Assembly (NCBI GenBank): GCA_029706075.1
Contig: JAINUG010000026.1
Span: forward strand, 2,153,001 to 2,217,000
Length of the DNA: 64,000 nt
Direction: 5' to 3'
Source: Aldrovandia affinis
Lineage: Eukaryota > Chordata > Actinopteri > Notacanthiformes > Halosauridae
In this document: in pieces, positions 9,901 through 64,000 of the stretch
Numbering within the stretch: position 1 is the stretch's first letter
Layout: every line of letters begins with the position of its first letter
The notes under the pieces: generated by a model
What the model saw: only the letters and a program-made list of their open reading frames with translations
Database searches by the model: none
Told to the model about the DNA's origin: nothing
Made by a program: the position numbers and the translations under genes

Positions 9901-10021
9901 TGGAGACAAGTTAAATAGTTAACTTGTTATTACAATGCTTAATTCAAACACATTTTACACACCATAAACGGTATAATCATCTTAATAATAAATAAATAAA
10001 ATATAATATAACACAATATAA

Positions 10022-11795
10022 CGACGACTATAAGGAGAACGACTTCCGAACGGCTTCGAGGAGGTTCTGGACCACCATCCGGCATCTCAGGAGGGGGAAG
10101 CAGTGCACTGTCAACACTGTGTACAGTGGGGATGGGGCGCTGCTGACCTCGACTCAGGAAGTTGTGGGTCGGTGGAGGGAATACTTCGAAGACCTCCTCA
10201 ATCCCACCGACACGCCTTCCAGTGAGGAAGTAGGGTCTGGGGACTCGGGGGTGGGCTCTCCTATCTCTGGGGGTGAGGTCGCCGCGGTAGTTAAAAAGCT
10301 CCGTGGTGGCAGGGCCTCGGGGGTGGATGAGATCCGCCCGGAGTCCCTCAAGGCTCTGGATGTTGTGGGGCTGTCTTGGTTGACACGACTCTGCAGCATC
10401 ACGTGGACATCGGGGGCAGTGCCTCTGGACTGGCAGACCAGGGTGGTGGTCCCCTAATTCAAGAAGGGGGACCGGAGGGTGTGTTCCAACTACAGGGGGA
10501 TCACACTCCTCAGCCTCCCTGGTAAGGTCTATTCAGGGGTTCTGGAGAGGAGGGTCCGTCGGATGGTTGAACCTCGGATTCAGGAGGAGCAATGTGGTTT
10601 TCGTCCTGGTCGCGGAACTGTGGACCAGCTCTACACCCTCCACGGGGTCCTGGAGGGTGCATGGGAGTTTGCCCAACCAGTCTACACATGTTTTGTGGAC
10701 TTGGAGAAGGCTTTCGACCGTGTCCCTCGGGGAGTCCTGTGGGGGGTGCTCCGGGAGTATGGGGTACCGGGCCCCTTGATACGGGCCATTCGGTCCCTGT
10801 ACGACCGGTGCCGGAGCTTGGTCCGCATTGCCGGCAGTAAGTCGGACCGGTGAGGGTTGGACTCCGCCAGGGCTGCCCTTTGTCACCGGTTCTGTTCATA
10901 ACCTTTATGGACAGAATATCTAGGCGCAGCCGGGGCGTTGAGGGGGTTCGGTTCGGTGGCCTGAGGATTGGGTCACTGCTCTTTGCAGATGATGTGGTCC
11001 TGTTGGCTTCATCGGGCCGTGACCTCCAGCTCTCGCTGGAGCGGTTCGCAGCTGAGTGTGAAGCGGCTGGGATGAGAATCAGCGCCTCCAAATCCGAGAC
11101 CATGGTTCTCAGCCGGAAAAGGGTGGAGTGCACTCTCCGGGTCGGGGAGGAGATCCTGCCCCAAGTGGAGGAGTTCAAATATCTCGGGGTCTTGTTCACG
11201 AGTGAGGGAAGGATGGAGCGGGAGATCGACAGGCGGATTGGTGCGGTGTCGGCAGTGATGCGGACGCTGCATCGGTCTGTCGTGGTAAAGAGGGAGGTGA
11301 GCCTAAAGGCAAAGCTCTCGATTTACCGGTCGATCTATGTTCCTACCCTCACCTATGGTCACGAGTTGTGGGTAGTGACCGAAAGAACGAGATCGCGAAT
11401 ACAAGCGGCCGAAATGAGTTTCCTCCGCAGGGTGTCTGGGCTCTCCCTTAGAGATAGGGTGAGGAGCTCGGTCATCCGGGAGGGGCTCAGAGTAGAGCCG
11501 CTGCTCCTCCGCGTCGAGAGGAGCCAGATGAGGTGGCTCGGGCACCTGGTTAGGATGCCCCCTGGACGCCTCCTTGGTGAGGTGTTCCGGGCACGTCCCA
11601 CCGGGAGGAGGCCCCGGGGAAGACCCAGGACACACTGGAGAGGCTATGTCTCTCGGCTGGCCTGGGAACGCCTCGGGAATCCCCCGGAAGAGCTGGATGA
11701 AGTGGCCGGGGAGAGGGAAGTCTGGGTCTCCCTGCTTAGGCTGCTGCCCCCGCGACCCGACCCGGATAAGCGGTAGAAGATGGATGGATGGATGG
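10022..11795 (+). mobile_element. Rex3-type (RTE clade) LINE, 5'-truncated
   Basis: The copy is flanked by a perfect 9-bp target duplication ACAATATAA (10013-10021 and 11796-11804). Its 3' end carries the GATG tandem tail (ATGGATGGATGGATGG near 11779-11795) that is diagnostic of Rex3. It begins inside ORF2, after the endonuclease, as is usual for incomplete reverse transcription. It is much more GC-rich than its surroundings and has few lesions, so the insertion is probably younger than the L2 at 1370-6205. Rex3 is established as an abundant teleost RTE retrotransposon; assignment is by RT sequence and tail, not by search. Confidence 0.9.
10119..11776 (+). pseudogene. Rex3 reverse transcriptase, one stop and one frameshift
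   Basis: Residues read continuously from 10119 through the RT core to a natural stop at 11774-11776. Visible motifs are GFRPGRGTVDQLYTL near 10600, FVDLEKAFDRVP near 10693, GLRQGCPLSPVLF near 10857, the catalytic FADD box near 10983, and a C-terminal segment with LTYGHELWV near 11348 and GRRPRGRPR near 11603. An in-frame TAA at 10455-10457 interrupts it once. The frame then shifts near 10840-10850, probably by a small deletion just before GLRQGCP. The FADD catalytic residues are intact. The N-terminal endonuclease is absent because of 5' truncation, so this copy could not act alone. The 229-codon minus-strand frame over 10510-11199 is an antisense shadow. Confidence 0.88.
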
Positions 11796-18494: not shown

Positions 18495-19569
18495 GGAATG
18501 GGGAAGAAATGTGATCTAAGTGACTGTTGACAGTGGAATGATTGTTGGTGTGAGTGTCTCAGAAACTGCGGATCTCATGGTACTTTCACGCACAACAGTC
18601 TCTAGGATTTACAGAGAATGGTGTGAAAAACAAAAAACATCCAGTGAGCGGTAGTTCTATGGGCGAAAACACCTTGTTAATGAGAGAGGTCAGAGGAGAA
18701 TGGCCAGACTGGTTCAAGCTGACAGGAAGGCGACAGTAAATCAAATAACCACGTGTTACAACAGTGGTATGCAGAAGAGCATCTCTGAATGCACAACTTG
18801 TCGAACCTTGAAGTGGATGGGCTACAGCAGCAGAAGACCACACCGGGATCCACTCCTGTCACCTAAGAACAGGAAAGTGAGGCTACAGTGGGCACAGGTT
18901 CACCAAAACTGGACAGTTGAAGATTGGAAAAACATTGCCTGGTCGATTTCTGCTGCGACATGCAGATGGTAGGGTCAGAATTTGGCGTAAGCAACATGGG
19001 TCCATGCATCCATCCTGCCTTGTGTCAACAGTTCAGGCTGGTGGTGGTGGTGTAATGGTGTGGGGAATGTTTTCTTGGCACATATTAGGCCCCTTAATAT
19101 CAATTGAGCATCGTTTAAATGCCACAGCCTACCTGAGTCTTGTTGCTGACCATGTGCATCCGTTTATGGCCACAGTCTACCCATCTTGTAATGGCTACTT
19201 GCAGCAGGATAATGCGCCATGTCACAAAGCACACGTCATCTCAAGCTGGTTCCATGAACATGACAATGAATTCAGTGTACTCCAATGGCCTCCACAGCCA
19301 CCAAATCTCAGTCCAATAGAGCACCTTTGGGATGTGGTGGAACGGGAGATTCACAACATGAATGTGCAGTCAGTCCAATAGAGCACCTTTGGGATGTGGT
19401 GGAACGGGAGATTCACAACATGAATGTGCAGCCGACAAATCTGCAGCAACTGCGTGATGCTATCGTGTCAATATGGACCAGAATCTCTGAGGAATGTTAC
19501 CAGCACCTTGTTGAATCCATGCCACGAAGAATTCAGGCTGTCCTGGGGGCAAAGGGGGGTCCTACCTAG
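18495..19569 (+). pseudogene. Tc1 transposase (DD34E), broken
   Basis: The N-terminal helix-turn-helix region is scattered over frames near 18554-18740. MARLVQADRKATVNQITT (near 18700) leads to the catalytic core. The usual first catalytic aspartate after EDWKNIAWS (near 18920-18945) is missing because a small deletion joins this directly to RFLLRHADGR in another frame. The second aspartate is kept in QQDNAPCHKA near 19204, and the glutamate in PIEHLWDVVE near 19313. A 62-bp tandem duplication (19308-19431) repeats the glutamate motif and shifts the frame. The natural end, AKGGPT followed by a stop, is at 19569. The protein cannot be functional. Confidence 0.88.
19308..19431 (+). repeat. 62-bp tandem duplication inside the Tc1 transposase
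   Basis: The segment starting TCAGTCCAATAGAGCACC at 19308 is repeated without visible change from 19370. The period of 62 bp is not a multiple of three, so it moves the downstream reading frame. Identity of the two copies indicates the duplication postdates most decay of the element. Confidence 0.92.
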
Positions 19570-22928: not shown

Positions 22929-23717
22929 GGAGGAAGAGCTGCAACAATTGAGAGAAATGCCAATATACAGGTAACAGAACGTCTAGTCTATGCTCCTAGG
23001 GAAAGGAAATGCTCAGAGTTTAAAGGGAAAACTAGCATAAGTATAACTGAAAGGCTGGAGGAAGTCCAGTCTTGTATGCGTGCTCACCACTTATCTACTG
23101 CTGACCAAGCTTTTTTATTTAGCAACACGAGGGTGCGGCCCTAATGGCATGCCTAACTTATCTGTTTTGCTGCATAAACAATTTGTAGAGAATATTCTTG
23201 ATTGTGCCCTCCACAGGGAATTAAAGCAGTTGGTTCGCGATCACCAAACTTACACCTTGCTGGATGGTTGTGCGAAGGCTATAAGGTGGGAGCAGGGGGG
23301 TATGCCAGGGGTTGGGCAAGTTTTTATGTCCCATCATCATTTGGTACACAGTACATGGTTCTGGGAATGCCCCCTATACTACCAGGTAACACTACTTCAG
23401 GGTCTGATTTAGCAGAGCTAAAGGAAATTCTGAAAAGGCAACAGGATCAGCTTAATCAACTCACTCAGAGCCTTGCACTCCTACAGAACCCGCTTAAGGA
23501 AACTCAGTTTAGGCATAATGGGTCTGTTATTTGCCAGAGGTGCCAACAACTAAGCCACTTTGCTCTGGAACGTGACAATGAATGTGTCCCTTCACAGGTT
23601 AGACCTCCTATCCCCTATCCTTCTCACTCTCAGACAAGTGGGCCCCAGATCTCCAGTCAGCCGATGGAAACTAACTTCAGAGGGCATTCTTCCTGGCTCA
23701 AGTGCTTTTGTTAAGGG
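22929..23717 (+). pseudogene. Ty3/gypsy-type gag relic, broken
   Basis: Starting near an ATG at 22929, the relic shows RLVYAPRERKCSEFKG near 22983, an amphipathic stretch ending LSTADQAFLF near 23090, then after an internal deletion QFVENILDCALHRELKQLV near 23180 and AIRWEQGGMPG near 23276. A Gln/Leu-rich coiled segment (ELKEILKRQQDQLNQLTQSL) follows at 23416-23475. A CCHC zinc knuckle, CQRCQQLSHFALERDNEC, lies near 23530-23585. This order (capsid-like domain, then knuckle) is that of Gag in LTR retrotransposons. Multiple frameshifts and stops prevent expression. It is directly interrupted at 23718 by an LTR, and its protease continues after that LTR. Confidence 0.78.
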
Positions 23718-24814: not shown

Positions 24815-25828
24815 TGAATTTTAAGATGTAACAAGGGGAGCCAAGACACCACAACTAAGTTGTTAGGTTCCTGCCCTAATGTAACTGTTGGATTGGGGGG
24901 GTTAGGGTCCCATGTTTGTTAGACACAGGGTCAATGGTGTCAACAATAACTGAAAGCTTATTTTCCCAGAATTTTTTACATTGGGGCTGTGGAAAAACTC
25001 CATTCTTGTCAGTGGCTACAGCTTAGGGTGGCCAATGGCCTGGACATCCCATATATTGGCTACTTGGAGCTCAATGTTGAGGTCTTTAGCAAGGTAATCC
25101 CAAAGCGTGGCATTTTGGTTGTTAGATCTCCCTAACGCTTTGTCAAAGCAAAAGGTTCCAGGTGTCTTGGCATGAATGTCATTAGGGGATGTTATAACAA
25201 GTTGTTCAGACAGTATGATCATACTGGTTCTGTGTGGCTCAGTAGGTAGAGTAGGTAGAGCACAGCGTTGACAATGTTGACAACGCTTAGGTTGTGGGTT
25301 CGATCCCCACTGGGACCACATATACTGAAAAATGTATGCATTCAATACTGTAAGTCTCTTTGGATAAAATCGTCCGCTAAATGGCATATATTATATTATA
25401 CTCTGAGTGAAATTTGCTCCAATGAAGCAATTTTCTCACCCATGGCAGGAAGTTTTGCAGCAGTGCCATCAGGCCCAAGTCACACAGCCTGTCATAGTGT
25501 ATGAGCAAGGGGTAGTAGGGTCTTTTGTGTGCCTCGTGGCACTGAAGTTGATGGCAACTGCATGCTCCTAACAACATTTTGAGCCTTGTGAGGTGGTAGT
25601 TGTGCCTCCTAGAGGTGGTTTACCTGCTGATCTATTCATATCCCCAGCTCAAGTGACTTGAGGCACAGCCTACATACTCATAGTTAAAGTAGGAGTTACA
25701 TATGTTTTGCTTTGCCCATGCAGTGTTATTGGCACCCTGAGTCAGGCACCTATCGTGAGTTTGCCAGTAGGCATTACTGAGATTAGTGAGGGGGTTTCTG
25801 CCACAGTTTCTTCTCAGGTTGCCACATA
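24815..25828 (+). pseudogene. Ty3/gypsy-type aspartic protease region, broken
   Basis: The catalytic motif LLDTGSMVS is at about 24916-24942. A frameshifted continuation reads VANGLDIPYIGYLEL near 25029 and VIPKRGILVV near 25092, then KQKVPGVL near 25148. These are the blocks that follow DTG in retroelement proteases. The relic is interrupted by a SINE at 25227-25391 and then resumes with PPRGGLPADLFISPAQV near 25609-25660 and a segment ending VSLPVGITE near 25757. Stops are present throughout. No reverse transcriptase follows because a Tc1 fragment abuts at 25829. The protease belongs with the gag at 22929-23717 by order and similar decay. Confidence 0.75.
25227..25391 (+). mobile_element. 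tRNA-derived SINE inserted in the protease relic
   Basis: The head TGTGGCTCAGTAGGTAGAG (A box) and GGTTCGATCCCCACTGGGAC (near 25298, B box plus acceptor-like stem) is close to a real tRNA in outline. It is followed by the tail GTAAGTCTCTTTGGATAAAA near 25350. The tail is the same type as in the SINE at 16927-17140, although the heads differ. Two tiny internal tandem duplications (GTAGGTAGA, and GTTGACAAT/GTTGACAAC) disturb the D-arm and anticodon regions, so it is not a working tRNA gene. Confidence 0.8.
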
Positions 25829-26559: not shown

Positions 26560-27644
26560 CACTATATGGCCAAAAGTCAGTGGACACCTGACCATCACAC
26601 CTATATGAGCTTGTTGGACATCCCATTCCAAAACCATGGGCATTAATATGGAGTTGGACCCCCCTTTGCGGCTATGACAGCTGCCACTCGTCTGGGAAGG
26701 CTTTCCACAAGATTTTGGAGTGTGTCTGTGGGAATTTGTGCCCATTCAGCCAAAAGAGCATCTGTGAGGTCAGGCACTGATGTTGGATGGGAAGGCCTGG
26801 CTCGCATTCAGCGTTCTAATTCCTCCCAAAGGTGTTTAATGGGGTTGAGGTCAGGGCTCTGTGCAGGCCAATCGAGTTCCTCCACACCAAACTCATCTAA
26901 CCATGTCTTCATGGACCTCGCTTTGTGCACAGGGGCACAGTAATGCTGGAACACCAAAGGGCCTTCCCCAAACTGTTGCCACAAAGTTGGAAGCGCCCAA
27001 TTGGCTAAGATGTCTTCATATCCTCTAGCATTAAGAATACCCTTCACTGGAACTAAGGGGCCTATCCCAAACCCTGAGAAACAGCCCCAGACCATTATCC
27101 CTCCTCCACCAAACTTTACAGTAGGCACTATGCATTCCAGAAGGTAGCGTTGCCATGGCTGCTCAGCCATGGAAACCCATTCCATGAAGCTCCCGACGCA
27201 CAGTTCTTGTGCTGATGGTGCTTCCAGAGGCAGTTTGGTACTCTGTAGTGAATGATGCAGCAGATGATAAGCGATTTTTACGCGCTATGCGCTTCAGCAC
27301 TCGTCGGCCCCGCTCTGTGAGTTTGCGTGGTCTACCACTTCGTGGCCGAGCTGTTGTTGCTCCTAGGCGCTTCCACTTCACAATAATAGCACTTACAGTT
27401 GACTGGGGCACATCTAGTAGGGCAGAAATTTCACGAACTGACTTGTGGCAAAGGTGGCATCCTATGAAAGTGCCGTGTTTAAAGTCACTGAGCTCTTTAC
27501 GAACCATTCTGAATTCTAAATGTTTGTCTGTGGAAATTGCATGGCTATGTGCTGGATTTTATGCACCTGTTGGCAATGGGTGTGGCTGAAACACCTGAAC
27601 TCAATAATTAGTAGGGGTGTCCACTGACTTTTGGTCATATAGTG
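26560..27644 (-). mobile_element. Tc1-like transposon with TA duplication, inactive
   Basis: The termini are CACTATATGGCCAAAAGTCA at 26560 and its near-perfect complement ending at 27644, with TA on both sides (26558-26559 and 27645-27646). The length of 1085 bp is slightly short because of an internal deletion in the transposase. The coding strand is minus. Sequence is well preserved at the ends. Confidence 0.92.
26643..27507 (-). pseudogene. Tc1 transposase with all three catalytic positions lost
   Basis: From the ATG at 27507 (MVRKELSDFKHGTFIG) a paired-type helix-turn-helix is intact: SVREISALLDVPQSTVSAII, the GRPRK AT-hook-like linker, and a second helix set ending [12 protein letters not shown]. 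Then comes a deletion and frame change near 27170-27185, removing the region around the first catalytic aspartate. The core resumes at [23 protein letters not shown]. The second catalytic position reads [10 protein letters not shown] (Tyr where Asp is expected). The third reads NPIKHLW (Lys where Glu is expected). A stop follows ELER near 26805, and the remaining frame ends KGGPTPY at 26643. DNA binding could be preserved in principle, but cleavage could not. Confidence 0.88.
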
Positions 27645-60211: not shown

Positions 60212-60848
60212 CACTACCGGTCAAAAGTTTTAGAACACCCCCATTTTCCAGTTTTTACTGAAATTTAAGCAGTTCAAGTCCAGTGAATAACCTGAAATGG
60301 TACAAAGGTAAGCGGTAAACTGCCAGAGGTATAAAAAAAAAAGACCATAAGACCTTCTTCCAGTCTTCAGTAGTCCACTGGTGGTGCTTCATGGCCCAGG
60401 CAAGCCTCTTTTTCTTATTTTGCCATCTCGACCTGTCAAACCTGCAGCTCAAAGTCTTCTCTTCACAGTTGAAACTGAGACTTCCTTACTTTGACCAGTG
60501 TTAAGCTGTGCTTGTAGCTGTTGTCCTGTGAGCCGCCTATCACGCAAGCTGTTGACTCTTAGAAACTTGTTTTCTGATTTTGTTGTGGCTTTGGGTCTGC
60601 CAGACCTCTTCCTGTCAGAGTTTCCTCCAGTTTCCAAGTGCCTTTTGATGGTGTAGGAAACTACTCACTGCCAAAAAAATTACATTATTTTTCAGGTTTT
60701 GGTAGCCTAAACTTTTTTTTAAATCCCTGGCAGTTTACCGCTTACCTTTGTACCATTTCAGGTTATTCACTGGACTTGAACTGCTTACATTTCAGTAAAA
60801 TCTGGAAAATGGGTGTGTTCTAAAACTTTTGTTCTAAAACCGGTAGTG
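60212..60848 (-). mobile_element. Internally deleted Tc1-like transposon
   Basis: TA flanks both ends (60210-60211 and 60849-60850). Long inverted arms of about 115-120 bp start CACTACCGG on each side and share AAAGTTTTAGAACAC, AAGCAGTTCAAGTCCAGTGA and ACAAAGGTAAGCGG. The right arm has a small duplication of TTTTAGAACAAAAG. The body of 637 bp is about half of a full element. Confidence 0.88.
60340..60660 (-). pseudogene. Tc1 transposase DNA-binding part, catalytic core deleted
   Basis: The minus strand reads VSYTIKRHLETGG near 60625-60660, the SGRPKATTK linker, LRVNSLRDRRLTGQQLQAQL (second helix set), and SVSTVKRRL ending near 60452. In another frame, KKRLAWAMKHHQWTTEDWKK follows near 60360-60420, and VLWS is where the first catalytic aspartate would come. 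The frame then runs into the terminal repeat. Everything from the first aspartate on is lost, leaving only a DNA-binding module. Confidence 0.8.
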
Positions 60849-60850
60849 TA

Positions 60851-62185
60851 TTCGTTTGAATGTGATGCATCTTGTTGAATTAGGTGCTTAATATTTTCTT
60901 TATGTCATATGCATACTAATGAAATCTCATTTATATTAATTAATTACCAATACTTGTGGAATTTAATGTATTCTGCATTACTTACAACTACCCATTGTTA
61001 GACCATTGCAATACAATAAATGGATCCAAGTTCATCTAATCATAACTCCTGCTGTTGGTTGTGGATTTATTCCTTGAACCCCTATTACCTGAGGCCCTGC
61101 CTCTATCACATTATTATTACTGAGTATGAACTTGTTGAATACCAGGCTAAATGATCAGTCATATATTTAAGGTTTGTAGTGTGAAACCCGTAACCTGGTT
61201 AGGATATCCACAGATTCTGATGGATTATTCCCTTTAACTGAAAATGTAAGGGACATTTCTACTGAACTTTGTACCATGAGCCAGGAACTGGGCAGAATTG
61301 GAGAAACTGAGATGCCCACTGTTAGGCCAATCAGGTAAGAGTGAGTAGTATACATTAATTGAACAATATTCTAGACCGCCTAAAAAAAGACATTCGTAAA
61401 AAAAGACAGTCATAAAAATACATCCTACTGCTGAGAGAGATGCTCCTCAGGGAAAAACTTCAGATCAGCTTTGAATCTCCATTCTTTTAATGAACAATTA
61501 AAAACAATTATTTTAATTATGACTGCTTTACAGGTCCAGATGGTATCCATGATCTATTTTACATTTTCCAACATTGTAGTTGTCAAGCAAAGTAGAATAG
61601 ATCAGGACAGACCTAGACCACCTTGGGAAAGAGGTGGGGTGTGAATCCAGGTCTCTGCTGTTCAACCCTTTGGTCAGTACTCTTTAGCTTTCACACCGTG
61701 ACAGTGAACCAGAAAAGTGGGTCAGACACCATAAAAAATTATTGAAATTAATTTGTGACTGAAACAACCCCCTCTTACTGTGGAGCCTCTCCACAGAGCA
61801 ATGGCCACTGTCCTGGTATAAATTTATTTCATCCTCCTTGGCTAATATTTAGGGATAAGAGATCGACCTGCATAGACCGCAATTATTCCACGAGAGACGG
61901 CAACACAGCAGTTTAGAATCTTATGAAGAGGGGGTGAAGTCAATTCCTTTAAAGTGAGACAGAGGAATCCAGGCTCCTGTCATTGTTATTGCCTCTGTAA
62001 ATGGACAGCCATTTCTGAGCCGCTGGAGGGAACTGTTTACAAGTTGAAATGGGCATAGTGATCTGAATGCTCTAAAATGGGAAGGACATTACTGGTAATC
62101 TTTCCCTGCCATTCATCAGTAGCACTTAAATAGTAAATTACATCCCTTTGCAATAAATTATTTGTATTCAATATAATATATATAT
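60851..62185. other. No gene recognised
   Basis: AT-rich DNA with frames of about 60 codons only. Nothing further could be supported. Confidence 0.5.
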
Positions 62186-62285
62186 TGTGGCGTCCCCAAG
62201 GGTTGGGCGACACTCACTGACCTTTCAGAGGGCGTAGGCAAGTGTAAGAACACTGAGGAGGCAGTAATATCAGCAGAAATTATGA

Positions 62286-62291
62286 TTTATT
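62286..62291 (-). terminator. Polyadenylation signal in the minus-strand LTR
   Basis: AATAAA on the minus strand, about 100 bp before the LTR end. Confidence 0.65.
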
Positions 62292-62454
62292 AAACAAACA
62301 ACACAAAACGCAGGGTGGGGTCTTTTGGGGAATACGAACACAAAGTCCACAATTCTTGTCTCTTTGTCGATGTCCGTTCCAAATTCGCAATCCAGGTCCA
62401 AGTTCCGTTGTCCAGTCCGTAATCCAATTCCAAGTAATCCAATCCAACACAAAA

Positions 62455-62530
62455 ACTCTCTCCAAAAAACTCTCTCCAAAAAACTCTCTCCAAAAATACT
62501 CTCAAACTCTCTCAAAAACTCTCTCTCTCA
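62455..62530. repeat. Short tandem array inside the LTR
   Basis: Units of about 14 bp built on CTCTCTCCAAAAAA and its variants repeat four to five times between 62455 and 62530. They lie downstream of the TATA box in the transcribed part of the LTR. Confidence 0.75.
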
Positions 62531-62637
62531 AAAACACTGGCTGGTCATACGACTTCACAGTTTTCTCTTTTCCTTTCACTCACCAACTCCTCACAACCAC
62601 GTTCCTACTCCTCTCTCCGAACAATGGGCATCAGCCC

Positions 62638-62645
62638 TTTAAATA
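62638..62645 (-). promoter_or_regulatory. TATA box in the minus-strand LTR
   Basis: TATTTAAA on the minus strand, about 155 bp from the LTR start, in GGCCTATTTAAAGGGC. Confidence 0.65.
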
Positions 62646-62790
62646 GGCCTCCAAAATGGCTTCCAGCTGGTCGTTTGTCCAATTTGCCGTGACTTCGTTC
62701 AGGTGTTGCGGTGGCATGCTGGGAAATGTAGTGAAAATGGCTGCCATGTGTTGGAGGCCAGGCAGCCATTTTGGGGTGCAACCCTTCGGG

Positions 62791-63996
62791 CTACCACACA
62801 CCCTCCTCCTCAGCTCTGACCTCGGGGAGGGCCGAGCGGCCTATGTCCAGCGGCCACCAGGAGGGTCCCCCTCTCCAGGTCCACTCAGGAAGTGTCCCCC
62901 CTGGGTCAAACGTCCAGAATCCCCAGTCTCCGGTTCCCTGAAAAAATGTCTGGCAGACATTAATGAGTGACGCAAGTTGCTCACCTTTTCTGCCACAAAA
63001 TGGCCAACAGTGTGTACAGGCTCTGGGCTCCATGGACGGAGCGGTCACCGCTCCTGCTCTGGTCTTCACCAGCCCTCCATGGCTCCTCCGGTATACTTTA
63101 CGCCGTTCCGGAATCCAGTATCCAGGCTTCAGCCTTTTCCTCCACCTCCCTTTTTCTTTCAGGGGGTCCGGTGGAGTAACTGGGGAAAACATGCTCTCTA
63201 ACACGTGGTTAGCGGTATCCTTACATTTCCTTTTTCCATTCGCATTTATTCTCCATAAACGGTTGCTATGGTTAATGCTTTTAATTTTACTTCCGTTCTT
63301 TCCTGAGTTTCTTTTCCAGTGAGACCTTTGAATCTCCATTCCTCTTCTCCGTCTTTTAAATTTCAACTGAAATGGACTTACCACGTCAGGAGATGGTCGG
63401 GTGCTCAAACAGGCCTCGGCCTTAATTAGGAGGCCTTCCTCAACCCTATGGTCCCCCCATAGCTCCTCTAGGCCCCCTTGAAGGTCCGGTAGGCTGAGTG
63501 GGACTGAGGACCACTGTCCCCACTCCAATGTCTGGTCATCATGTCCTCCCAGCTCCGCTGGCTGCGGGACCTCCACCTGCGTGCTAGCGTCTTGGGTGAC
63601 AGGAACACACTTTACCCATTCGAGTTCTGCACTCACCCCTTCCAGTCGGTCTTGTAAGTCCAGCACAGTCTCGGTTTGGACCTTCAGTACTTCCTGAAAT
63701 GATTTCTCTGTGGCCCGCTGCTGAGCTTCTATCTCCGCCATCTTCCCCTGAAGCTGTGCGGTCTGCTCCAGCTGCAGCTTCTGGACCAGCTCCCGAGTGC
63801 GGGCCTTCTCGTTGCGGAGCTGTGAACGGATCTCCTCCTCGGTGCGGTTCTTGTCCTCGTGCAGGCCGCGCAGCTCCTTCTCGTAGCGCGCCCCCACGCC
63901 CAGCACCTCCTTCTCGTGCTGCAGCCGCACGTCGCTCAGCTCTTCCTTGTGCCGCGACTTCTCCTGCGCCACGTCGATGGCCAGCTCGTCCAGCAT
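62791..63996 (-). CDS. Open coiled-coil ORF joined to retroelement 3' sequence, partial
   Basis: An uninterrupted frame of 401 codons, open toward the window edge, so the true start may lie outside. Residues about 1-130 are a charged heptad-rich coiled coil (HEDKNRTEEEIRSQLRNEK, KMAEIEAQQRATEKSFQEV), encoded by GC-rich DNA unlike the rest of the window. Residues 135-205 are acidic/Gly/Trp-containing (ASTQVEVPQPAELGGHDDQ). A basic, NLS-like patch (KFKRRRRGMEIQ, then KRNSGKNGSKIK) covers 213-240. The last 60 residues read through the retroelement, and the polypurine tract encodes AEEEG just before the TAG inside the LTR. No protease, RT or integrase motif is seen. I do not recognise the protein. 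It may be a host or captured coiled-coil sequence, or an accessory frame of the element. Confidence 0.55.
   Translation of the reverse strand: MLDELAIDVAQEKSRHKEELSDVRLQHEKEVLGVGARYEKELRGLHEDKNRTEEEIRSQLRNEKARTRELVQKLQLEQTAQLQGKMAEIEAQQRATEKSFQEVLKVQTETVLDLQDRLEGVSAELEWVKCVPVTQDASTQVEVPQPAELGGHDDQTLEWGQWSSVPLSLPDLQGGLEELWGDHRVEEGLLIKAEACLSTRPSPDVVSPFQLKFKRRRRGMEIQRSHWKRNSGKNGSKIKSINHSNRLWRINANGKRKCKDTANHVLESMFSPVTPPDPLKEKGRWRKRLKPGYWIPERRKVYRRSHGGLVKTRAGAVTAPSMEPRACTHCWPFCGRKGEQLASLINVCQTFFQGTGDWGFWTFDPGGTLPEWTWRGGPSWWPLDIGRSALPEVRAEEEGVW
62801..62817 (-). promoter_or_regulatory. Polypurine tract
   Basis: On the minus strand, GAGCTGAGGAGGAGGG ends exactly where the LTR begins. This is the expected position of the plus-strand primer of an LTR retrotransposon, and it fixes the LTR boundary. 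Confidence 0.65.
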
Positions 63997-64000
63997 GGCC

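Follow-up and report, generated by a model that had tools for sequence, protein, structure and literature searches.

The longest stop-to-stop reading frame of the 64-kb window (the whole stretch of DNA analysed here) begins in sequence resembling a host protein, GRIPAP1, and ends within a long terminal repeat (LTR), raising the question of whether a piece of a host gene has been captured by an LTR retroelement or merely lies beside one. The frame comprises 402 codons on the minus strand (63999-62791; the runner-up in the window has 311 codons). Its stop codon (62793-62791) occupies bases 8-10 of the LTR at 62186-62800, confirming the initial annotation's description of an open frame of about 400 codons that runs into an LTR. 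The 5' end of the frame is open at the edge of the window, which stops inside the GRIPAP1-like part. The following features are discussed below.

63787-63999, minus strand: coding segment resembling GRIPAP1 (GRASP-1), spanning codons 1-71 (54/71 identity to a provisional human sequence; GC3; CpG)
63382-63786, minus strand: second coding-like segment, codons 72-206 (period-3 χ2 42.4; composition breaks; modelled helix)
62801-63381, minus strand: internal tail, open but lacking codon periodicity, codons 207-398 (period-3 χ2 3.6)
63376-63381, minus strand: GTAAGT, a candidate splice donor in codon 207 (5.6 by a provisional donor matrix)
62801-62811, minus strand: polypurine tract directly before the LTR (from reading of the sequence)
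62186-62800, minus strand: 3' LTR of 615 bp with TG...CA ends, TATTTAA at 62645 and AATAAA at 62291

Composition of the frame and the adjoining LTR

By composition the 402-codon frame is a composite of three parts and not one coding unit, because a strong period-3 signal extends to about codon 180-198 and disappears beyond. A three-segment composition model sets the breaks at codons 77-90 and 180-198 (positions scoring within 2 log units of the optimum), and GC3 falls from 0.97, 0.93 and 0.87 over the first three 30-codon blocks to 0.53 in the next, in agreement with the earlier description of a coiled-coil third that is GC-rich and biased at third positions relative to its flanks. The treatment of the whole frame as protein in that description is not borne out for the last ~190 codons, which lack codon periodicity: the tail (codons 207-398) has a period-3 χ2 of 3.6, compared with a background mean of 6.7. 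An open frame of this kind arose in 7 of 100,000 sequences simulated with a first-order Markov model, and such openness argues against a plainly non-coding status. A 28-base tandem repeat lies within it (62846-62900).

Database comparisons of the 402-codon frame returned three Pfam matches (E 0.12-1.2), none above the cut-off and none to GRIPAP1, and five PDB matches (E 0.17-0.79), which were taken as chance and likewise did not include GRIPAP1. A search of viral contigs for relatives of the frame gave 26 pattern matches, none of which was confirmed, and Rfam at gathering scores returned nothing across the window.

The sequence at 62186-62800 has the features that define the 3' end of an LTR retroelement, namely TG...CA ends, a promoter box (TATA-like, TATTTAA) and a poly-A signal (AATAAA) in one sense, here minus, and an immediately adjacent polypurine tract, also in minus sense. 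A 4-6 bp duplication flanking the LTR is absent (TATAT at 62181-62185 versus CCCTC or CACCC), so that a solo LTR beside an unrelated reading frame was rejected; what lies to the right of the LTR is consequently taken as internal to the element. A 5' LTR is expected to be followed by a TGG-type primer-binding site. The right flank begins CCCTCC, with no such site, and the polypurine tract, TATA-like box and AATAAA are all in minus sense, so that a plus-strand element with its 5' LTR at this position was also rejected. These results support the earlier placement of the repeat as a 3' LTR in minus sense with internal sequence on its right. They do not extend to the accompanying Ty3 label, as the visible frame gave no Pfam match above the cut-off to reverse transcriptase, RNase H, integrase or gag, the remainder of the element lying to the right of 64000. 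Nor do they bear out the suggested non-autonomous status, as the 5' part of the element is beyond the window.

Other features were noted in the window. A reverse transcriptase, probably of a LINE, lies at 9996-11776 on the plus strand, with RVT_1 matches at 10458-10850 and 10841-11773; these fall in two overlapping frames, so the element is broken. The earlier statement that every other retroelement frame in the window is broken thus stands for this one element, and as a statement about every frame it goes further than the Pfam scan, which covered 10 of the 45 frames of at least 115 codons. A transposase remnant taken as Tc1-type (DDE_3 at 18881-19378, plus strand, E 5e-11) is accompanied by a second Tc1-type-like remnant in the region 26808-27284 on the minus strand, where DDE_3 scores below the cut-off (26811-27284, E 3e-06). 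There is a perfect 62-base tandem duplication at 19308-19431 and, at 60222-60831, an inverted repeat with 119-base arms that are 95% complementary and separated by 372 bases, resembling a small DNA transposon. A 170-codon frame at 23202-23714 (plus strand) combines a short stretch like a coiled coil with a motif containing Cys and appears gag-like by eye, with no Pfam match. ARAGORN predicts a tRNA-Val (gac) at 25236-25319 (plus strand), which may be a tRNA-derived repeat. The transposase and reverse transcriptase remnants, taken with the teleosts named in the initial annotation, tentatively point to a fish as host.

The GRIPAP1-like and middle segments

Codons 1-71 are identical at 54 of 71 positions to residues 431-501 of human GRIPAP1, the comparison sequence being a provisional one, set down after the window was read and not taken from a database record. 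A tblastn search with this 71-residue segment alone scored 108 bits (E 2.2e-32), compared with a maximum of 28.1 bits for 50 shuffled copies of it. The whole provisional protein sequence gave 118 bits (E 1.3e-29), with an alignment that extends past codon 71 at low similarity; similarity to GRIPAP1 stops at ...KARTREL and none is evident after codon 71. Six peptides from the provisional sequence had no match in the literature searched. The segment has no stop and is intron-free over its 71 codons. The corresponding DNA (63787-64000) has a CpG observed/expected ratio of 1.03 and 24 CpGs, the highest count among 214-base stretches sampled every 20 bases across the whole window. On this similarity to the provisional sequence, GRIPAP1 (GRASP-1) is the probable source of codons 1-71, which lends support to the separate host origin that the initial annotation had proposed for the coiled-coil part.

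Outside 62186-64000, the best match in the window to the upstream 430 residues of GRIPAP1 had an E value of 2.2 and that to the downstream 340 residues an E value of 1.6. The remaining 62 kb thus appear to contain no convincing further GRIPAP1 exon, at a sensitivity that short or diverged exons could escape. Other tblastn matches to GRIPAP1 (E down to 5.8e-6) land on the same coiled-coil frame and are at the level that any coiled coil produces, and a short match at 62876-62811 (E 0.32), located in the tail, contains a stop. As to membership of a GRIPAP1 gene, the 3' side, which is the only side visible, offers neither a convincing neighbouring exon nor a good splice donor where the similarity ends.

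Scored with a donor matrix that was likewise provisional, the sole GT where the similarity stops (CTG/GTCCAG) reaches -5.6 and no donor in codons 1-121 scores above 3. The first that do are at codon 122 (63636, score 5.2) and codon 207 (63381, GTAAGT, score 5.6), the latter about ten codons past the end of the periodic part; the background rate in the window of donors scoring above 5 is 0.29 per kb and strand. The initial annotation named a host exon ending in a normal donor ahead of the element part as evidence that would count against its reading; such an exon is accordingly not seen in the visible sequence, and a plain native exon of this kind was set aside as unsupported. The tail also contains a donor-like AAG/GTGAGC at 62984 (score 6.8).

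From codon 72 to about codon 195 the frame looks coding, with a composition unlike that of the GRIPAP1-like part. No background segment, among as many as 4000, reaches the period-3 χ2 of codons 72-206 (42.4), and 0.2% reach that of codons 87-206 (30.2), while GC3 over codons 91-210 is 0.53-0.63. The ATG at codon 87 (63741) is accompanied by A at -3 and G at +4. No database match to this middle segment was found; it is probably the element's own coiled-coil-encoding sequence.

Both the open frame and its codon periodicity carry on across the GRIPAP1 junction. The first composition break (codons 77-90) comes 6-19 codons beyond the end of the similarity, so that the junction is not fixed to the base; the few codons between have a GRIPAP1-like composition yet do not resemble the provisional protein sequence. 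An AlphaFold2 model from the single sequence shows a helix at residues 2-128 that spans the junction, with pLDDT averages of 86-98 in 10-residue blocks over residues 1-120 and low confidence for most of the remaining frame (mean pLDDT 54.6, pTM 0.29). The prediction fits two coiled coils placed end to end, but single-sequence models of this kind tend toward long helices. A blastn search of the fusion region against the rest of the window gave a single match of 16 bases, and hence no second copy within the window.

Possible capture and competing explanations

The reading favoured here, to which the sequence evidence gives about an even chance, is that a GRIPAP1 coding fragment was captured in sense and in frame within the internal region of an LTR element of which only the 3' end lies in the window. 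It is favoured because the strong GRIPAP1 match (E 2.2e-32) has no convincing second piece in the other 62 kb, because its 71 codons are intron-free with no usable donor at their end, and because GC3 and CpG change sharply near a junction that leaves frame and periodicity unbroken and is crossed by one modelled helix. The LTR, not being solo, has internal sequence on its right, and the KIT-ligand and nectin3 captures described in PMC4299795 provide precedent in vertebrate LTR elements. Element sequence bounding the captured segment is consistent on the 3' side, the 5' side being to the right of 64000. Against capture, the 5' LTR, the primer-binding site and the start of the GRIPAP1-like part all lie beyond the window, there is a single copy in the window, the position of the junction is known only to within several codons, and a same-strand, in-frame join would by itself arise by chance about 1 time in 6. 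The GRIPAP1 comparison, moreover, uses a provisional sequence and not an independent record, and an undegraded, CpG-rich GRIPAP1-like part is also expected of a native exon.

That last point belongs to the main rival, in which the window edge enters a GRIPAP1 gene, native or duplicated, and a 5'-truncated LTR element or a rearrangement abuts one of its exons or lies just after it; the frame past codon 71 would then not be GRIPAP1 protein, or would be exonised element read as far as the 63381 donor. Sequence of this sort most often comes from a native gene, the GRIPAP1-like part is undegraded and free of stops, and the better donors at 63636 and 63381 lie further along. However, this explanation would leave the exon with no good donor where the similarity ends and with no convincing downstream GRIPAP1 exon in the 62 kb to the left, in which short or diverged ones may be missed, and the joining of exon-like DNA to element-internal DNA is not the outcome of a plain LTR-element insertion. 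A native locus is on balance considered rather unlikely, and a GRIPAP1 retrocopy made by a LINE and lying by chance beside a 5'-truncated LTR element is improbable. The absence of an intron over 71 codons and the presence in the window of an RVT_1 reverse transcriptase, taken as that of a LINE, would suit a retrocopy, but the same-strand, in-frame continuation with codon periodicity would not, no poly-A run is found at the junction (codons 60-99), and the copy would need to be truncated at its 3' end here as well. The junction is also close to an abrupt change in composition and next to sequence derived from repeats, as would be expected if the assembly had joined a GRIPAP1 exon to a repeat, but the join is in frame and such a chimera is regarded as highly improbable.

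If capture did occur, the fragment would lie upstream of the probable coiled-coil segment of the element and its 3' LTR. GRIPAP1 mRNA or a read-through transcript may have contributed the fragment by template switching during reverse transcription, and the element could have moved by means of enzymes supplied in trans. RNA driven by the LTR would encode a protein with an N-terminal part forming one long coiled coil, with translation starting either in the GRIPAP1 part beyond the window or at the codon-87 ATG (63741). The GRIPAP1 coil might associate with itself or with the host protein, or may be a passenger. A more far-reaching proposal, put forward as speculative and doubtful, is that a family of non-autonomous vertebrate LTR elements carries along, as it spreads, a captured GRIPAP1 coiled coil joined in frame to a coiled-coil protein of its own. 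A host scaffold for endosome recycling would then serve the family as an oligomerization or trafficking module, possibly in a spliced product ending at the 63381 donor.

Relation to known captures

Capture of host mRNA by retroviruses is described as relatively uncommon, with homologues of KIT-ligand, nectin3, Src and cyclin D among the examples given in PMC4299795, and this locus looks like one more host-gene capture by a retrovirus-like element. Like the present sequence, CrocERV31 (nectin3) and CrocERV29 (KIT-ligand) are vertebrate LTR elements with a host mRNA-derived frame in the internal region. According to that paper, those captures involve a surface protein and a cytokine, have long open frames in several copies and are reported to be under purifying selection, whereas the present case is a piece of an intracellular coiled-coil protein at one locus, with ends beyond view. 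In plants, additional reading frames occur upstream or downstream of gag-pol in LTR elements, some attributed to a process resembling retroviral transduction and in that case limited to one or a few copies, while other families carry the extra frame in all or most copies; none is stated in the accessible text to derive from GRIPAP1 (PMC11963269). In the literature combining GRIPAP1 with retrotransposons or endogenous retroviruses, no such fusion is apparent from titles and the beginnings of abstracts.

GRIPAP1/GRASP-1 is a Rab4 effector, and a stretch at residues 280-300 has been tied to Rab4 binding in PMC2808209; the piece at this locus matches residues 431-501 of the provisional sequence and lies outside that stretch. 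Should the locus prove to be a native gene, an element would have broken or exonised a gene for neuronal trafficking. If the capture is real, a Rab4-effector scaffold joined in frame to a coiled coil of the element would be cargo of another kind than the earlier examples and would hint at a connection between the assembly of retroelements and endosomal recycling.
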